Below, piece after piece: positions 11,446 through 62,857 of a stretch of DNA of 64,000 nt (the stretch's first letter is position 1; each line of letters starts with the position of its first letter). Position numbers and translations under genes: made by a program. Location: NCBI GenBank assembly GCA_036936605.1, contig JAUPFV010000001.1, positions 315,844,809 to 315,908,808 of the forward strand. The letters run 5' to 3'. Origin of the DNA: Limnanthes douglasii subsp. nivea (lineage: Eukaryota; Streptophyta; Magnoliopsida; Brassicales; Limnanthaceae). Below the pieces are notes generated by a model. It did not search any database. It was not told the origin of the DNA and saw only the letters and a program-made list of their open reading frames with translations.

Positions 11446-11868
11446 ATACCGGTGTTAACTAAATAAGCTCTTTCATTAACATTATAATAAAGTATACGAC
11501 CCTGTATTTAAACCATAAACATATTCGACTCTTTTTCATAAAAGTGAATATCTAACATAACTTCATCAAAAGATATTTCAAAAATAATTTGTGGTCCTCG
11601 TCAAAGGTTTCACATTATAACTCAAACTGTAAAAATTCAAATTTAAAATATGAGGTATATCTTATAACTCGGATCATCATAAGATATTTTAGTAAATATG
11701 CATATATTTGAGAAGAATTCATCGTTTTGCATATAGATGTAACATACATTGTGTATGATTTTATATGAGGCTATAAGCCAAAGTTTGTCATCAACAAAAA
11801 AAAGGTGTGTAATATGCCTTAAAATGAAATTTGTCAACCTAACTCCATGATATAAAGTCTATAAACTA

Positions 11869-12215
11869 AATGATCTCCATGACAGAAAGGTTTTACGCCA
11901 AATGATCTTCATAATAGAAGTGTTATAAGCTAAATGATCTCCACGACAGAAAGGATATAAGCAAAATGATCTCCATGATAGAAAGGCTATAAGTGAAATA
12001 ATCTCCTTAAATAGTAATACTATAAACCAAATAATCTTCATGACAGAAAGGTTATAAGACACATGATCTTCATAACATAATTCTATAAGCCAAATGATCC
12101 CCATAATAGCAAGGATATAAACCAAGTGATCTCCTTGATAGCACGACTATAAAAAAATGATTTCCACGATAAAGATGCTATAATTCAAGTGATATCCATG
12201 TCAATGAAGATGTGA
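11869..12215 (+). repeat. Minisatellite, about 32-bp unit, 11 copies
   Basis: Degenerate tandem units of the form AATGATCTCCATGATAGAAAG plus a variable TATAAGCC part. The AATGATCT word recurs at 11869, 11901, 11933, 11965, 11997, 12030, 12062, 12093, 12124, 12157 and 12187, a period of 30-33 bp. The apparent minus-strand reading frame here is a product of the repeat. Confidence 0.9.
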
Positions 12216-41887: not shown

Positions 41888-41935
41888 CCGCCACACACTA
41901 GCGTACGCAATGGCCATTTCGCCAACCAGTAGCGG
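41888..41935. repeat. Palindrome pair at the MULE-b 3' end
   Basis: Two sites, CCGCCA-5-TAGCGT (41888-41904) and TCGCCA-5-TAGCGG (41919-41935), separated by 14 nt. Total 48 bp, identical in layout to 61692-61739 in MULE-c. The outer flanks can fold into a long hairpin (TTGCCGC...GCGGCAA). Confidence 0.85.
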
Positions 41936-41999
41936 CAATAGGCCAAACTTTTAGCCTCGATTCTGTTTTTGGATAAGATGATGCGAGTTTTGGCTCATT

Positions 42000-42111
42000 T
42001 CGCAACTAGTTTGGCGTAACAGCTGATTCCCACACCAACCGTTGGTGTGGGCCTTCAACCTCACGCCAACCGGTGGTGTGCGAGTCAACACGCGCACCAT
42101 TTCGTTGGCGA
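42000..42111. repeat. Phased palindrome array, four sites, MULE-b 3' region
   Basis: Sites 42000-42017, 42032-42048, 42063-42079 and 42094-42111, with centres of 6, 5, 5 and 6 nt and gaps of exactly 14 nt. Total 112 bp, the same as MULE-c 61518-61629. The second site is ACACCA/TGGTGT, a paired change of both arms that keeps the symmetry. Confidence 0.9.
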
Positions 42112-42288: not shown

Positions 42289-45200
42289 TTAAAAGTCTTT
42301 CGTTAAGTCCACTACGGGTTCCTCAAATTCAACGGAATGTGTCGGCATAGGATTTTTTAGTCTTGGAAATACACGGACTCTATCTAACAAGGGGTTGACC
42401 AACAAGTAGCGTCTTCTTTTGCCATGCGCATCCACGTTGGATCGATAGTCGGTAAAGGTGACCCTTTAACCAAATCGACCTACAAATTGACATTGAATCT
42501 TAATGCGTGTTTAGAAAATAAATCATTAAATGCGTAGGAAACTAAAAATTCTTTAGTCACGTGAACAAAATGGTTTTTATTGACGAATGCCACATCGATC
42601 TCCTTTAAAGAATCATCCTTCAGTGGTGCACCGGGAGAGATGCAATATAAAACATAATTGAATGTCGGTGACTAGTTTTCCGCACTAGGAAACGATATCC
42701 AATTTGTGAATGGTGCACTCTTTATTAAAAGTCAACCGGTGTATCTCCTTATCGACTTCGCTTTCATCGTCGTAATATGCAACGCGTTTATACAACACTC
42801 GATCGCTCTTTAGCTCATGAACCATGGCTTCTCTAAGCATTAGCCATCCACTTACGTACCCGACCATACCATGCACGATGGCTCCAAAACCACAATTACC
42901 GTCACGCATAACGTTTGTAATTCGGCTTATGAAAGAACGCATAAATTAAGGTATATCGTTTAAAAATATCGAGTCCGGCACATTTGGTAATCTGATCGAG
43001 ATTGGTTTAACATGGAATGGCGATATAGGGGTAATGTTGTTCGACGCATCCGGAGTTCCTAAACCTATACATGCAACCCGTTTTTTTGTGTTTTTGCTCC
43101 GGAATTACTATGAGTATGTGTGGCGACCGTTCGTCCGGTGCTACCGAAAGTGCCGACCGAGATTCCTAAACTAGCGGCGGGTGATATCATTCTTGGATTT
43201 TCGGCACTATCGTGGGACTTGAACATTTCTTGTGCGCCGTATTCGTGGTATGAAGGATCCATTTTTGTAGAATAATCACGTTGGAGTTTGCTACCTTTAC
43301 CGCGACCCTGACCGCGTCCACAACCGCAGCATCCGACACTTCCGGGAGTTCTACCGCGGGTTTTAACCTTCTCGAGGGGCTCGCAAAGGAGTGTCGTCGA
43401 TGGATCCAAAAAAATTTGAAATGTTTTTAGCCAATGACTTTGTTCGTAAATATCAAACTCTTCAAGTTTAGCATTTAGATTTGAGAAATTAAATTTAACC
43501 TCTTCTTTGCCGGTGAGTTTAACTCGAGAAACAATATCTAGTCTCTTCTAATGCTCGTCTATAATCCGAGTAGGTACATTATCGTCCACTCTTAGGATTA
43601 CCTCAAGTTTGTGGGAACACGGCAAACCATGGATCGCACGATCGGTGCAAACACACGAAGATTTATCATCGCCGCTTTTATGAACAATATTATTGTATAC
43701 TATCGCCAATGCAATAGGTGATACGTACCCCCGTAAAAATTTGAACGGTTTAAAATCTTGAAATTTGTGAATTATACGACACTTGCTAAGCTCCATCGAT
43801 TCTTTAATGGTCGAATGTTGCATCGCTAACAAACCATGTACTTTATCCTAAAACCCATCGAAATCCAATCGGCTTGACCCGATATATTTTTTCAATGTAG
43901 CATGCGAGCTTTCTGCCGTATTAGAGGTGTCATTATTGAAATGCATGATTTTGTTAGTATAAGCGTGAAAGAACCTCTCTTTATAATGTGTAATCCACGA
44001 GTCTACCACATAATCCACCGCCTTATCATGTTCTTTGAACAACGACCGCATCTTAGCCAACCTCTCGTTTATCACCTCAACAGTAGTGGATGAAACGACA
44101 TTTTTCCATGTCGCCAAAAAATTGTGAAACACTTTCCCGTCTTCAAACATATTTTTTGTTTTCCGGTTAACATTCTTGTTGATATGTCACTCGGATAACA
44201 TGTGAATAGCACTAGGAAATATTTTTTCGATGTTATTCAGCAAGGCTAGTTCACGGTCCGTAAGGATAACACAAGACAATTCACAATCATTCTTCTCCAT
44301 TGCCGTTTTCAACAATATCAATGACCATTCGTAGTTGTCTTGTTTTTCACTCACCGTAAACGAGAAACCAATGCACAACATTTTGTTGGTCGATGTTACC
44401 TCAACTACTTCGAACAAAGGCATCCCGTTATGAATAACTTTATACATGATATCCATGATTAGCAAGTGTGAGAAGGTCCGAAGTAAATTAATATTAAGCG
44501 GATGTGCGAAAAATAAATCGGTTATAACGTTAGAGCCATCATTGCCCGTCTGTATCGAATACTTGTACTTGTGCAATTGTAATTTAACTATCAAGCATTG
44601 CATTTGAGATTGACCACCATTTTCAACCATCTTCGTTCTTTGACGGTGATTGTAAACGTGATGGATATTTGAAGCATTCTCCGGATCGGCCTTTTTAAAG
44701 CACCACCGTCAAAAGATCAACAAGCTCTTTTTCCTTCCGTTTTAACTTGGACCATTTCAAATGTCCTTGGACATACTTAATTTTTTCGTGGTTGTGCATC
44801 GCGGAAAGGACACTAAGAGCCCACTTATTGTCGCCTTTTATCGGATTGCCTACCAAATGAAAAAGGCAATTTATGTTTTTGCTAACGGTAGCCTTATGCT
44901 TACGGTCGCACTCTTTAATGCCCAACTTAAAAATTCTGGATCGCTCACACCGATAATCTACTCTCGGTGTTCTCCCTCTTTTCTCAATCTCCTTAGATGC
45001 TATGTTAATCGAAAAACCTAACGACTTTCCCGTATTTTTTACCCACGCGGTCATCGAGTCTAAGCTATACTCGTCGTGAGTGGTGAAATTGTGAGCGTAG
45101 TCCGAAACAAGCAAAATTTCGATTTGGGTTATCTCCTGCGATATGTAAGAAGTAGTTAGACCAATTGAACGGGCATTCTGGATTAGTTTAAGGGGTTTCG

Positions 45201-45500
45201 CCATTAGTATGGCGCAAGACACCACCACCACGTCATTAGATGGCGTAATCAACCAACCGGATGCCACACGTGTGGCGAACAAAAGGGTAAGCACGCCATC
45301 ATATGGCCTGGTGATGGTGTCCTACGCCACTACATTGGCGTCGAGCACAACACGCACGCCAATGAGTGATGACGAATGCAAAAAATAGGTTTTTTAAAAA
45401 AAATCTGTTTTTTGCGAAAATAAGAGGGGAGAAAGGAATGTACCTTCTCGGCATCCATGCTGCTCTGCATGGGAAGTGGTTCCGACTCTTTTCCGGCCAT
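42289..45500 (-). pseudogene. MULE-b transposase-OTU gene
   Basis: Exon 1 is 45500-45444 (19 codons, starting MAGKESEPLP). Intron 1 is 45443-45136 (308 bp, GT-AG). Exon 2 runs 45135-42561, intron 2 is 42560-42480 (81 bp), and exon 3 ends at a TAA at 42289. Features in order: FAR1-type zinc finger (RCERSRIFKLGIKECDRK, NCLFHLVG), DDE transposase (LLIMDIMYKV, ILTDRELALL), the post-core ESSHATLKKYIGSS, SWIM finger (CVCTDRAIHGLPCSH), Gly/Arg-rich GCGRGQGRGKGS, and OTU (MRDGNCGFGAIVHG). Many stops and frameshifts disrupt exon 2 (near 44690, 44190, 43850, 43550, 43060 and 42680). Exon 3 keeps DPTWMRM, showing that MULE-c's stop there was Trp. Confidence 0.88.
45198..45372. repeat. Phased palindrome array, six sites, MULE-b intron 1
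   Basis: Sites 45198-45215, 45230-45246, 45261-45278, 45293-45309, 45324-45341 and 45356-45372. Read along the gene the centres are 5,6,5,6,5,6 nt and every gap is exactly 14 nt. The array starts 71 bp after the splice donor, as in MULE-c. One site contains GCCACACGTGTGGC, a perfect palindrome also found at the equivalent site of MULE-c. Confidence 0.92.
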
Positions 45501-55399: not shown

Positions 55400-57817
55400 T
55401 CGTACATAACAAAACACCGTAATGAACCTCGATGCTAAAAAATATATAAAAATATAACAAAAAAAATCAATTTTTTATTCACACATATGATTTTGATAAA
55501 CTTACAATCCTAATTAATACGTTGTATGTCTCGTGAATGATGTAATCTCGATTCAAAGTACTAGTGTGAGGTAAGATGTCAATAAACACCATGTCATGGT
55601 TCGGTCCTAAAAGACTATTAGGGGTAACATTGCTCGACTATCTTCCCACATCAAAATGGTTTTAGTGGGAGAATGAGTATCATCTTCGTATTCTTCAAAA
55701 TCACGCAAAGTCTGTAGCTTTGCTTATGTATGCGCACACTACGAGAAGTCTGACCATGTATGATTAATGGTCATCACTCAGGCGGACGTGTTACTTCTAA
55801 AAAGCTTTCTATGAGGCGATATCATGCAAAAACAAACAAAAATTAGGTTATAAACATTTTAACGAATAAGTTTTCAACCAAAAATATTTTTAAAAACTCA
55901 AAAATACAAGTGATCCGTTATTTATCAAAATGGTATATCGGAAGTAGTATAAACTATCCTGCAATGTGTCAAAAGCAAAGAAAAAACATATTCATGTAAT
56001 AATCTCATATAATCAAATGCATCGTCTTTGTTTATCGTATATATGGTGCAAAATTTACTCACCATTGTCGCACATATATGGGCTACTAACTTCGTCGTCA
56101 CCGTGACAGTCGCATTCTACGTGCGATTCGCACATATAATTCGTCTTCGCACTGGATAACAATCAAAATTTCAAGTATTTGAAGCGAACCCAAACCGCTA
56201 TAATCTATCCAAATTTTGAAAAATATAGATTTAAAACATACAATAACTTCGACCATACGTTATACAACTATCTAAACATTCCATAAACAAATACAAATTT
56301 CTTTTTTAATTTTTTTTGAAAAACTAAAACTTAAATAACAAACAAACTAAAAAACGAAAATTGAAATCAATTTGAAAAAATATATCAACTTTAAAAATAG
56401 ATAAATTTAAAAAAAATTAAATAGTAAAAAGAATACGACGGATGATCTAGCAAATTCTTTTTATAACTTTTGAGAAAAAGTAAAAAAAAACGTTCAATAT
56501 AAATAAAAACACTATAACATTGTAATCAAATATAGTGGTGGAATATTTAAAAATAATACGCCATGATATATAATATTAAAACGCCAAAAATAATATTAAA
56601 ACGCCATGATATATAATATTAAAAATAAAACGCCAAAATTAATATTAAAATTCAATATAAAAAAATAAAAAATTTCCTGCTTTGTCCTTTAAATACATTT
56701 TCAGAAAATAATTTATCGCTTCACCGACATTGAAACCACATATTTTAAGTGGTTCCTGTCCACAATTTACAGAAAAAGCTTCAAATTTTGAGAACCATAA
56801 GTAGTACATATAATGAACAAAAAGAGGAGGATACGATCATATACAAACGTGATTAAGTAGTCGTGCACTACATAGTCAAGGAAATGGAGCTAGCTGGCTG
56901 GCACCAACTCTTTCTGGACCATCCTGGTGTATTTTTGAATCACATGCATCATTTTGACCTTATTCATCTTTCTTTTTCAGCTTTCCATACGTGTCGTTGA
57001 CCATTTCACCAAAAAATGCATGACATGAAACTCTGTCTTTTCGAATTATTAGCACCAATGCTGTTTCTTTCGACCTACGGACGAATATGACTCAAACATA
57101 ACAAATATATTTATGAGATATATAGTGGTAGTTGATTTTTTTATAAAAGGGTTAAGGAAAGTTTACAATAAAAATTATAATACTAATGAATGTCAGGTTC
57201 TTTTTGTAATTAGATGGATTAGTCAATTAATATAGTTAAGTGATATTGTTATTTTGAAATTTTATTTTTTTTTTATTTTTTTTATTATTTTACATAATCC
57301 ATCCGGTTTTTGACATGTATGCATGTATATGGTTGACAATTTTATTAATCGGTTGTATGTCGGTTTGGTAAGTTTGGTCGAGATATATGTTTTATTTTTG
57401 GTTAAGAGAACACACGAAAATTATTTTCAAAATTAAAAAATAATAATTTTATCCGATTGAAATTTTTGGATAATCACTAAAAATATTTCAGTGCTGGTAA
57501 ATAATAGTGCATAAGCATTTATTAATAATTTTATTGTTAATAAAAATAATCTACAACTTTTTTTAATATGAACTTGTATATGATAAAGTTAGATAATTCT
57601 TAGGTAAGTTTATATACAGAAATGTTCATGCTTCAGTCTAAAAAATGTTCGTATAAGGTAGTTATAATTATACCATAAGTGTTTTGTAGAGTTTGGAAGA
57701 GAAAAAAATATGTAGCAATAATTGACTAATCATTGGCCCTTTTCTAAAAAGTGAATGTCCTTTCTCACCCCACTTTTTTTACTATTTACAGACAAGTTTT
57801 TAAGGTATATCACTTAA
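55400..57817. other. AT-rich stretch, no gene seen
   Basis: No supported ORF. A local cluster of AATATTAAAACGCCA-type words occurs at about 56550-56650. The rest is non-descript AT-rich DNA up to the MULE-c left end. Confidence 0.5.
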
Positions 57818-58080: not shown

Positions 58081-61000
58081 ATGGACGGAAAAGAGTCGGA
58101 AGCACTTCCCACTCAGAGCAGCATGGTCGCCGAGGAGGTACATTGCATTTCCCTCTTTCATTTTCGCAAACAAATAGATTTTGTGAAAAATCCCATATCT
58201 GGTATTCGTCGCTACCCTCCGGCGTGTACCACTGGCCGTACGCCATCCAGAAGGCGTATGGCACCTTCCCTTCGCCAGCTATTGGCGTGGGGGACCCTCC
58301 GTACGCCACACGTGTGGCGTACAGTCTATCGCTAACGCCAGTGTATGGCGAAGGGAAGGTGGCATGCGCCTTGTGGATGGCGGAATATGCTTCCCTTATC
58401 CGGAATGTCGGTTTAATTTGTTTTTCTACTTCTTACGTATTGCAGGAGGTGAACGAATGCGATATTTCGCTTGTTTTGGACTACGCTCACCATTTCACCA
58501 CTCACGACGAGTATAGCTTAGAGTCGATGACCGAGTGGGTAAAACTTAGAGGGAAAACGTTGGATTTTTCGATAAACGTAGCATCGAAGGAGGTAGGGAA
58601 GAGGGGGAGAACACCGAGAGTGGATTATCGGTACGAGCGATCCGGAATTTTCAAGTCGGCCGTTAAAGAGTGCGAACGTAAGCGTAAGGCTACCGGTAGC
58701 AAAACAATAAATTGCCCTTTCTATTTGGTGGGTAATCCGGTAAAAGGAGACGATAAGTGGGCTCTTAGTGTCCTTTCCGGGAAGCACAACCACGAACCGA
58801 TCAAGTATGCCGAAGGACATTTGCAATGGTCCAAGTTAAAACGTAAGGAAAAAGAGTTTGTTGATCTTTTGACGGTGAACGGGACAAGTCCGCGACAAAT
58901 ATTTGGTGCTTTGAAAAAGGCCGATCCGGAGAATGCTTCAAATATCCGTCACGTTTACAATCACCGTCAAAGAACGAGGATGGCTGAAAACGGCGGTCGA
59001 TCCCAAATAAAATGCTTGTTAGTTAAATTACAATTGCACAAGTACAAGTATTGGACACTGACGGGGAATGACGGTTCTAACGTCATAACCAATTTGTTTT
59101 TCGCACATCCTCTTAGTATTGACTTACTACGAACCTTCCCACGCTTGCTAATCATGGATAGCACATATAAAGTTATTCGTTACGGGATGCCTTTGTTCGA
59201 AGTAGTCGGGGTAACATCGACCAGCAAAACGTTTTGCATTGGTTTCACGTTTATGGTGAGTGAAAAACAAGACAACTACGAATGGTCTTTGGGATGCTTG
59301 AAAACGGTAATGGAGGAGAATGATTGTGAATTACCGTGTGTTATCGTTACGGACCGCGAACTAGCCTTGATGAATAGCATCGACAAATTTTTCCCTAACG
59401 CTAGTCACATGTTATGCAAGTGGCATATCAACAAAAATGTTAGCGGGAGAACGAAAAAAATGTTTGAAGACGGAAATGTGGCTAAAAGTTTTTTGGCGGC
59501 TTGGAACGACGTTGTTTCATCCGATACCGTTGAGGTTATGAACGAGAGGTTGGCTAAGATGCGGTCGATGTTCAAAGACCAAGATAAGGCGGTGGATTAT
59601 GTGGTTGACTCGTGGATTACGCCATATAAAGATTGGTTTGTTCACGCTTATACTAACAAAATCATGCATTTTAATAACCACGCCTCTAACATAGCCGAAA
59701 GCTCGCATGCTACATTGAAAAAATATGTGGGGTCTAGCCGATTGGATATCAATGGGTTTTGGGATAAAGTGCATGGCTTGTTAGCGATGCAACATTCTAC
59801 TATTAAAGAATCGATGGAGCTTAGCAAGTGCCGTCTAATTCACAGATTCCAAGATTTCAAACCGTTCAAATTTTTACGGGGGTACGTATCACCTATTGCA
59901 TTGGCGATAGTATACGATAACTATGTTGATAAAAGCGGCAGTGAAAAATCTATGTGCGTTTGCACCGATCGTACGATCCATGGTTTGCGGTGTTCGCACG
60001 ACCTTGAGGAAATCCAAATAGTGGACGGCCACGTACCTACTCGGATTATAGATGAGCATTGGAAGAGACTAGATATCATTCCGCGAGTTAAACTCACCGG
60101 TGAAGAAGAAGTAAAATTTAATTTCACAAATCTAAATGCGAAACTTGAAGAGTTTGATGTTTACGAACAAAGTCATTGGCTCAAAAAATTTCAAAATTTT
60201 TTGGATCCTTCGACTACACTCCTTTGCGAACCCCTCGAGAAGGTTAAAACCCGTGGTAGAACTCCTGGACGTGTTGGAAGCCGTGGTCGTGGACGGGGTC
60301 GGGGTCGCATTAAGGGTAGCAAAGTCCAACGTGATTATTCTAAGAAAAGGGATCCTTCGTATCACGAATACGTCGAACAAGAAATGTTTGAGTCCCACGA
60401 TAGTGCCGAAACTCCACGAATTGTAACACTCACCGCTAGTATAGCAACCCCGGTCGACACTCTCGGTAGCACCGCAAGAACGGTTGCCGCACATACTCCG
60501 ACTAATTTCGGAGCAAAACCACCAAAAAATATAGCAAAACGGGTACAATGTGTTAGTTTAGGCACTCCGGATGCGTCGAACCACATCAAGGCTATACCGT
60601 CATTCTCGGCTAAACCATTCCCGACTAGATTACCAAATGTTTTGGACTCGAGATTTTCAAAATACATACCTCAATATATGCGTCCTTTCATAAGCCAAAT
60701 TACAAATGTAATGCCCGACGGTAATTGTGGTTTTAGAGCGATCGCGCATGGTGTGGTTGGTAACGAAAGTGGATGGCTAATGGTTAGAGAAGCCTTGGTT
60801 CACGAGCTAAAGAGCGATCGGGAGTTTTATAAACGGGTTGCATATTACGACGATGAAAGCGAAGTTGATAAGGAGATAAACCGGTTGACTTTTAATAAAG
60901 AGAATGCACCTTACACAAAATGGATGTCCTTGCCTAGTTGCGGAAAACTAGTCGCGACTACATTCAATTGCGTTTTCTATTGCCTCGCTCCCGGTGGATG

Positions 61001-61364
61001 TACGACTTACCTACCGGTGAAAAATGCACCGCCGAGCGATGGTTCTTTAAAGGAGATCGGCGTGGCATTCGTCAATAAAAACCATTTTGTTCATGTGAGT
61101 AAATAACTTTAACTTTTGCACGCATTTAAGCATTTATTTTGTTAACGCGCATTGATATTGAACGGAAATGTTTAGGTTGAGTTGGTCAAAGGGTCACCCA
61201 TACCGACTATAGATCCTACGTGAATGAGATCGGCGAGAGAAGACGCTATTTCTTGGTCAATCCATTTGCTAGATAGAGTCCGTGTATTTTCAAGACTGCA
61301 AAATCCCACACCGACACACTCCGTTGAACATGATGATTCGATAGTGGACTTAACTAAAGATTGA
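58081..61364 (+). pseudogene. MULE-c FAR1-type transposase with OTU protease
   Basis: Exon 1 58081-58137 (MDGKESEALP..., 19 codons), GT-AG intron of 308 bp, exon 2 58446-61094 (883 codons, fully open), 81-bp intron, exon 3 61176-61364. Domains in exon 2: FAR1-like zinc finger (KECERKRK, NCPFYLVG, GKHNHEP), whose first Cys is Tyr here (YRYERSG; MULE-b has Cys); DDE transposase (LLIMDSTYKV near 59150, VTDRELALM near 59347, LCKWHINKN, ESSHATLKKYVGSS); SWIM finger (CVCTDRTIHGLRCSH, 59955-60000); Arg/Gly-rich GRGRGRGRIKGS; OTU cysteine protease (MPDGNCGFRAIAHG near 60712, with His in NKNHFVHV near 61080). Exon 3 has one TGA at 61221 where MULE-b has Trp. The exon-2 frame also reads upstream through the intron, which is not coding. 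Confidence 0.9.
58209..58383. repeat. Phased palindrome array, six sites, MULE-c intron 1
   Basis: Sites 58209-58225, 58240-58257, 58272-58288, 58303-58320, 58335-58351 and 58366-58383: ACGCCA-like arm, centre of 5,6,5,6,5,6 nt, TGGCGT-like arm. All five gaps are exactly 14 nt. Total 175 bp, as in MULE-b (45198-45372), and 71 bp from the splice donor in both. The fourth site is a perfect palindrome; it and its flanks (58301-58322) read GTACGCCACAC followed by its reverse complement. Confidence 0.93.
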
Positions 61365-61517: not shown

Positions 61518-61629
61518 TCGCCAGCCGAATGGCGTAACTGACGCTCCGCACGCCAACCGTTGGCGTAACTGACGCTCCGCACGCCAACGAATGGCATGGA
61601 CAACGTCCCCTACGTCATTCGCATGGCGT
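61518..61629. repeat. Phased palindrome array, four sites, MULE-c 3' region
   Basis: Sites 61518-61535, 61550-61566, 61581-61597 and 61612-61629, centres 6,5,5,6 nt, gaps exactly 14 nt. Two of the gaps are identical (AACTGACGCTCCGC), so this array has partly homogenised. Layout and total length (112 bp) equal those of MULE-b 42000-42111. Confidence 0.92.
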
Positions 61630-61684
61630 AGAAGCCATTTTCGGAGCCTCTGTCCCAAATGAACAAAGGCTAAAAAAAAATAAG

Positions 61685-61746
61685 CCTATTGCCGCCACAC
61701 GTTGGCGAAAACGGCTATCCCTACGCCGTTGTGTGGCGGCAATAGG
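61685..61746. repeat. 62-bp hairpin containing two palindrome sites, MULE-c 3' end
   Basis: CCTATTGCCGCCACAC (61685-61700) is perfectly complementary to 61731-61746, with a 30-nt centre. Inside are two sites of the array family, 61692-61708 (CCGCCA-5-TGGCGA) and 61723-61739 (ACGCCG-5-TGGCGG), 14 nt apart. Confidence 0.93.
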
Positions 61747-62479: not shown

Positions 62480-62857
62480 ATGGAGTTTACACCTGATGAA
62501 GACTATCATATGCTTAAGGCGGTGAAGGTTGACCGCCGACAAATGGGGGAAGACAGTAGCGATGCTTTCTTCGACCGCCTCCTATGTCAGATGTATTTCA
62601 ACTATGGGCATTTAGGAGCAGGAGACGTTCAAGTGCGAAGTCGTGACGAAATCAAATCCAGGTATGACTTCATCCAACCGCTCACTGTTCTGCTTTTCCA
62701 ACCAGCCAGAATTAAGAAAGAATCACCTTTGGTCTGGAACATGACGGTAGTAGACTACATCAGTAGGGATATGGTGGCGTATCTGGAGGATATGATTGCG
62801 GCAAGGAACGAGGGGGATGATTCGGATGACAATTTGAGATACGATTTCGACGACTGA
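62480..62857 (+). CDS. SANT/Myb-like small protein of PMD transposon 2
   Basis: An open frame of 125 codons from MEFTPDEDYHMLKAVKVDRR to an Asp-rich end (DDNLRYDFDD). The pattern FTPDED..ML.AV, GEDSSDAFFDRLLCQMYFNY and VRSRDEIKSRYDFIQPL fits the SANT/trihelix-like domain of plant transposon partner proteins (tryptophans partly replaced by Phe and Tyr). Two homologues lie at 41237 and, minus strand, 40424-40825, both broken. It is the only small gene here without a disabling change, with a TATA-like box about 85 bp upstream. DNA binding is inferred; whether it cooperates with the PMD protein or binds the palindromes is unknown. Confidence 0.65.
   Translation: MEFTPDEDYHMLKAVKVDRRQMGEDSSDAFFDRLLCQMYFNYGHLGAGDVQVRSRDEIKSRYDFIQPLTVLLFQPARIKKESPLVWNMTVVDYISRDMVAYLEDMIAARNEGDDSDDNLRYDFDD

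Follow-up and report, generated by a model that had tools for sequence, protein, structure and literature searches.

Dyad-site arrays with a nearly constant 16-nt gap in a Mutator-like element of Limnanthes douglasii

In the Arabidopsis Mutator-like elements (MULEs) called VANDAL, the protein VANC21 binds arrays of short motifs in introns and upstream regions (PMC5735166), and VANC target regions are reported to diverge fast (PMC5735166, PMC10398659). In maize, TnpA of Spm and MURA of Mu are element proteins which lower the methylation of their own element DNA (PMC10398659). The Arabidopsis plant mobile domain (PMD) proteins MAIN and MAIL1 are tied to the expression of genes with the promoter motif DOWN (PMC7156037, PMC9899485). 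A further process concerns inverted repeats: template switching between inverted arms is a described mutation process (PMC8794818) and homogenises the arms (PMC8604942).

The locus presented here lies in a window of 64,000 nt from Limnanthes douglasii subsp. nivea, the window being the whole stretch of DNA that was analysed. It resembles the VANC target arrays in its short repeated motifs, which occur in noncoding DNA (an intron and regions near genes) of a multi-gene MULE; binding is putative in our case. However, the VANC21 motifs have one orientation and form tandem repeats that expand and contract, whereas the sites described below are dyads; their number and their pattern of centres hardly change for a given array, and the gaps between them are rigid in length and mostly different in sequence. 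VANDAL elements have degenerate terminal inverted repeats, whereas those of the present element are recognisable, and it carries a PMD gene. Since orientation, rigidity and the presence of terminal repeats differ, we would not file the array system as a VANDAL/VANC member and regard the VANC arrays as its closest working model. VANC was not recognised in the stretches scanned with Pfam profiles, where the matches were MULE, PMD and weak OTU and FAR1.

The binding sites of Spm TnpA and Mu MURA lie at or near the termini; unlike these, one array is situated in mid-element here and one in an intron. The likeness to MAIN and MAIL1 is that the element encodes a PMD protein, but direct DNA binding is unproven for these two, and the DOWN motif of the MORC1 promoter (CATGCAGTTT) has no resemblance to TGGCG. 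Quasi-palindrome correction or template switching accounts for a joint change of inverted arms (PMC8794818, PMC8604942) but leaves the conserved half-sites and the 16-nt gap unexplained. Among titles and abstract starts of part of the matching open-access literature, we found no description of such an array.

The element and its three arrays

The features are as follows; positions beyond the window are those of locus L010, which overlaps it.

57809..57817 (no strand): left target-site duplication, ATCACTTAA
57818..64000 (+), with its right end outside the window at window-equivalent 65906 (L010 8715): MULE with the arrays, 8,089 bp; ends read from the sequence, left GGGAATTACTAAAAAAAC, right GCAATTCCC
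58081..58137 (+): predicted transposase exon 1, 19 codons, alignable in other copies
58138..58445 (+): predicted first intron, 308 bp, GT..AG
58210..58382 (no strand): array I, six dyad sites CGCCA N5/6 TGGCG; centres 5,6,5,6,5,6, gaps 16; sites start at 58210 (centre 5), 58241 (6), 58273 (5), 58304 (6), 58336 (5) and 58367 (6)
58446..61106 (+): exon 2, predicted to encode the MULE transposase; the protein has a DNA-binding region weakly similar to FAR1 and a C-terminus weakly similar to OTU
61519..61738 (no strand): array II; centres 6,5,5,6 and, after an interval of 64 nt, 5,5; gaps otherwise 16
62480..62854 (+): open reading frame of 125 aa
63217..64000 (-): PMD gene, the part inside the window; its probable start codon lies outside, near L010 7863
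L010 8024-8293 (window-equivalent 65215-65484): array III, adjoining the PMD gene at its 5' end; centres 6,6,6,7,6,5,6,5,5
L010 8716-8724: right target-site duplication, ATCCCTTAA
37900-38016, 41889-42110 and 45199-45340: second, decayed copy of the same MULE family, inverted; sites present at all three array positions
45199..45340, reverse orientation: intron array of this second, divergent copy, five sites with at most one mismatch; centres 6,5,6,5,6, gaps 16

The assignment to the MULEs is based on the ends and the transposase. Both ends of the window copy were read, the two 9-bp target duplications are equal at 8 of 9 letters, and the left end matches the opposite ends of the copies L001 and L002 as terminal inverted repeats with 83-84% over 60-64 bp. 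The MULE transposase domain was found with PF10551 (E 1.1e-24), while the matches to FAR1 (E 0.0047) and OTU (E 0.049) are below the Pfam cut-offs. Alignment with other copies spans 57815/57816 to about 65743, and the donor T at 58139 is kept in 68 of 69 aligned copies. The PMD match covers L010 6624-7490 (E 3.5e-40). For the 125-aa frame, a SANT-like identity had been suggested by the initial annotation and was rejected: neither a Pfam match at E 1 nor a homologue at E 0.001 was obtained, and the structure model (mean pLDDT 39.7) was too poor for a fold search. The nearest of 48 proteins in a public protein collection, from Rosa, Argentina, Camellia and others, are at most 41% identical. Recent activity of the family is suggested by the 78 transposase candidates that were scored among 31,038 first-look ones: each has an open frame of 618 aa or more, and in 70 the matched part contains no stop.

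The position of array I inside the 308-bp first intron of the transposase gene, its alternating centres and its constant gap were all found as initially annotated, with the 14 nt given there between six-letter half-sites corresponding to 16 nt between the five-letter cores used here. The symmetry of the six sites holds in part: sites 3-5 are perfect, whereas sites 2 and 6 have one core mismatch each and site 1 has two mismatches among its 10 core letters. That all sites lie on one helix face is arithmetically correct, since the half-site centres fall on a 10.5-bp grid with a resultant of 0.989 of 1; the distance from one half-site to the next is 10-12 bp inside a site and 21 bp across a gap. 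An ordinary tandem repeat was rightly excluded, as TRF reported none at array I.

Arrays II and III and the large dyad treated below are additional to the initial annotation. All three arrays are noncoding, array II being placed between the transposase and the 125-aa frame, and one array stands beside each gene or open frame. A perfect 31-bp tandem repeat covers 61530-61588 in array II. Arrays I, II and III are all present in the window element, in L001, in L002 and in an element split over L009 and L017. Eight further copies were read past the transposase; six of them have array II (L044 and L047 are without it), and a chain read as array III, whole or partial, occurs in all eight, with four sites underlying the reading in L044.

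The 16-nt gap recurs in nearly every case despite the different centre patterns of the three arrays. Among exact TGGCG to CGCCA distances of up to 40 in 12 sequences (11 fetched loci and the window, with L010 excluded due to its overlap), 42 of 48 are 16. In L052, a still more distant copy, the gaps are again 16, the half-sites are weaker and one centre measures 7 instead of the 6 of other copies. Gaps breaking the rule are found in L005 (15 nt) and in L013 (14 nt), a copy that was set aside, and sites were lost in L043, L054, L075 and L081. Exact phasing at 10.5 bp applies to arrays I and IIa, since array III fits a grid of 10.63 bp (resultant 0.925) better than one of 10.5 bp (0.768). In 340 distinct arms, the half-site letters GGCG reach 96-99%, followed by T 0.69, A or G 0.87, G 0.47 and G 0.56, the core figures being inflated because the selection of sites allowed no more than one mismatch in the core. 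Directly beyond array III (about L010 8306-8336), a perfect 31-letter palindrome with a single central base is located, CCATGGCAGAAGCTTGAAGCTTCTGCCATGG, which was also found with small changes in the other copies of the array III alignment.

Variation among copies

All counts on 68 or 69 copies were made after removal of L060 and L076, which have no array at that place; L013 was excluded from the length counts and both L013 and L052 from the rates. Gap lengths varying freely in other family members had been named beforehand as grounds for abandoning the pattern. Instead, length is kept in 333 of 340 gaps, i.e. at 16 nt, and in 402 of 408 centres of 68 intron copies, L052 being counted with a centre of 6 by alignment where its motif reads 7. 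For each substitution, pairwise counts between related copies gave 0.0065 gap events in the array, compared to 0.024 in the 3' intron flank, 0.057 in the 5' flank and 0.065 in exon 1. Pairs of copies differ on average by 0.056 in exon 1, 0.060 in the half-sites, 0.087 and 0.165 in the intron flanks, 0.276 in the gaps and 0.353 in the centres.

Variants found in one copy only (private variants) were taken as mutations that arose after insertion and were compared with variants shared by at least four copies; those in two or three copies were excluded, as were L013, L052 and win45. In the 66 copies, private variants per column amount to 0.517 in half-sites, 0.500 in spacers, 0.515 in centres, 0.57 and 0.52 in the flanks and 0.39 in exon 1. 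Shared variants per column are 0.067 in half-sites (4 in 60 columns), 0.812 in spacers (65 in 80), 1.030 in centres (34 in 33), 0.415 and 0.196 in the flanks (38 in 121) and 0.105 in exon 1. For shared variation we obtained P 0.005 for half-sites against flanks and P 2.6e-5 for spacers and centres against flanks, values which serve as a guide since the copies are related and the variants only partly independent; against the 3' flank alone the half-sites do not differ significantly (P 0.15).

Since the frequency of private variants differs little between half-sites, gaps, centres and flanks, neither do the half-sites appear to be cold spots of mutation nor the gaps and centres hot spots. With similar private rates and with shared variants that are rare in half-sites and abundant in gaps and centres, the half-sites look constrained and the gaps diversified at fixed length. 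Judged from these sequence comparisons, selection or biased fixation would have acted in the lineages that multiplied. Simple C-to-T decay behind the fast gaps was rejected, because the classes have similar private rates and because transversions, too, are more frequent in gaps and centres than in the flanks.

Long dyads, possible readers and rival explanations

The centres and gaps of array I had been described as otherwise unrelated in sequence. This was wrong: 58241-58311 and 58312-58382 together form a 142-bp imperfect inverted repeat, in which two gaps change jointly.

58241..58382 (no strand): long dyad with CACACGTGTG at its centre; two arms of 71 nt, 79% complementary
58257-58272 and 58351-58366: co-changing gaps 2 and 5 of array I

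In the window copy, gap 2 is complementary to gap 5 at 14 of its 16 positions; in 22 of 69 copies the two gaps are perfect reverse complements, and these copies include several different gap sequences. Within a copy they match at 13.31 of 16 positions and between copies at 10.55, with none of 5000 permutations as high. No comparable excess was seen in the other gap pairs (largest 0.49) among 54 distinct haplotypes, drawn from 63 copies with five 16-nt gaps. Similar dyads occur in array III in 9 copies, where the gaps are 83-95% Watson-Crick. Dyads are not a general rule across arrays, as array IIa is near the shuffled level (68.1% Watson-Crick against 65.5% when shuffled; its gap 50.0 against 47.4). 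Gap 2 pairs poorly with gap 5 in L061, L063, L066, L067, L070, L075, L079, L082-L084 and L086, in which it reads ATGATTCCC (ATTATTCCC in L082); spacing is nearly intact in this group, with small length changes in L061, L075, L082 and L084.

Two interpretations had been offered for array I, a docking platform for a dimeric protein and a row of 6-bp RNA hairpins. The former fits, for a putative protein, because the half-sites are conserved in sequence, the spacing is rigid and the same rule is followed in three arrays. The latter was rejected: in seven copies, the 30 pairs of the six local hairpins show no compensatory change (12 are invariant, 5 have changes in one partner, and in 13 every change breaks the pair), so that letters rather than pairing seem to be kept here.

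Conserved letters at fixed distances on one helix face, with free letters in between, are the mark that a cooperative DNA-binding protein would leave. Our preferred explanation, to which we give about an even chance, is that the arrays form a half-site lattice read by a putative dimeric or oligomeric protein and regulate the element's genes, working in a VANC-like manner with membership in that group left aside. The protein would read the core TGGCG with the weaker extension TRGG and would most likely be made by the element, the candidates being the transposase, the 125-aa protein and the PMD protein. Control of the element's own genes is the best-supported role, since arrays stand beside all three genes or open frames and one lies in mid-element; most likely the lattice would activate these genes or keep them unsilenced. 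We infer such binding, the identity of the protein and the regulatory or anti-silencing purpose from the layout and variation of the sites. As the half-sites of array I face one side of the helix, adjacent dimers could touch across the rigid 16-bp gap. The large dyads would most simply be made and refreshed by template switching of inverted arms at the DNA level, and gaps that change fast without changing length would be in keeping with evasion of siRNA-guided silencing. A related version, which we consider possible but rather doubtful, sees in the arrays a VANC-independent address for anti-silencing or self-activation, read by an element protein, with gaps selected to escape siRNAs: siRNAs from silenced relatives would no longer match the gaps while the protein would still recognise the half-sites, and template switching between inverted gaps would supply the paired changes. 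If a protein does read the lattice, the arrays offer a clean natural test in which a protein address is kept while almost every other letter changes. The contrast of private and shared variants makes an arms race between element proteins and sequence-guided silencing testable outside the VANDAL system, and the locus is a possible case of paired inverted-repeat changes without RNA structure.

Subterminal repeats of other plant DNA transposons serve as transposase-binding sites, and the arrays might similarly be bound by the transposase for excision and integration. The location of array I about 390 bp from the left end and of array III about 420-690 bp from the right end, as well as the weak FAR1-like region of the transposase, are consistent with this. 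However, array II is not subterminal, its distances to the two element ends being about 3.7 and 4.2 kb, and every array adjoins a gene or open frame rather than a terminus, which makes such a role unlikely. A purely passive origin, in which remnants of tandem and inverted duplication are kept alike by template switching and have no present function, would be in line with the known homogenisation of inverted arms (PMC8604942, PMC8794818) and with the 31-bp tandem repeat of array II. It appears improbable, as the half-sites mutate like other columns in terms of private variants and yet have few shared ones, and a passive process would not keep five-letter cores amid the turnover of the letters between them.

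The remaining alternative, which we rate as improbable, is an RNA structure of the intron array, i.e. a long pre-mRNA hairpin that would affect splicing or yield siRNAs. The predicted intron fold of -139.7 kcal/mol is far below the mean of 100 shuffles (-90.3; z -10.4), but the minus strand folds well too (z -7.0). In seven copies, two-sided changes were counted in 26 of 69 pairs of the long dyad (16.8 in shuffles, 1 of 500 as high) and 83% of its cells are paired, against 34-44% when slid; the better match of gaps 2 and 5 within a copy points in the same direction. Gaps 3 and 4, on the other hand, show no excess pairing (53.2% against 52.1% shuffled). A stem tolerating G-U would give an excess of G-T over A-C mismatches, as is seen in the array I dyad (37 to 21; outer gaps 6 to 1; 7 copies) and in gaps 3 and 4 (99 against 60; 69 copies). 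The covarying gaps 2 and 5 do not follow (44 against 47; 69 copies), nor does array IIa (24 against 35), though IIb does (17 against 9); array III has 10 against 18 on the plus strand, which on the minus strand of PMD would favour G-U. This signal is thus inconsistent across arrays, and the copies it was counted in are not independent. Moreover, the copies with the ATGATTCCC-type gap 2 pair at only 7-10 of 15-16 positions with spacing kept, and a stem leaves the 16-nt gap unexplained. With mixed G-T and A-C counts and one group of copies in which most pairing is lost, a long RNA stem as the main function is disfavoured on the sequences compared. For the cause of the paired changes the evidence is mixed as well; we lean towards the DNA level, with template switching as the simplest process.

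The pattern in the genome and neighbouring repeats

The site pattern is above chance. In the window, exact CGCCA-N5-TGGCG occurs four times and CGCCA-N6-TGGCG five times, with means of 0.00 and 0.01 in 100 shuffles. The 1.78-Gb host genome contains 7,526 sites compared to 175 for the reversed pattern, and 5,536 TGGCG-N16-CGCCA pairs compared to 132 in the control. Gaps of 17-21 with five-letter half-sites are also numerous (8,104 genome-wide, control 1,214), but this count does not measure the present arrays, the first places listed being other repeats.

A dispersed palindromic family, TGGCGGAAACAGGGGGT..TGTCCGCCA, has 17 nt between the cores and was noted at G000:C1:24060295, 33158041, 39324322, 39928719 and 46713440. 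It is possibly a sister family with another motif, and L051 has a related nested dyad. Within the window, an imperfect 32-bp tandem array of 11 copies (71% matches) is located at 11843-12200; its sequence is unrelated to that of the dyad arrays and the likeness in period looks coincidental.
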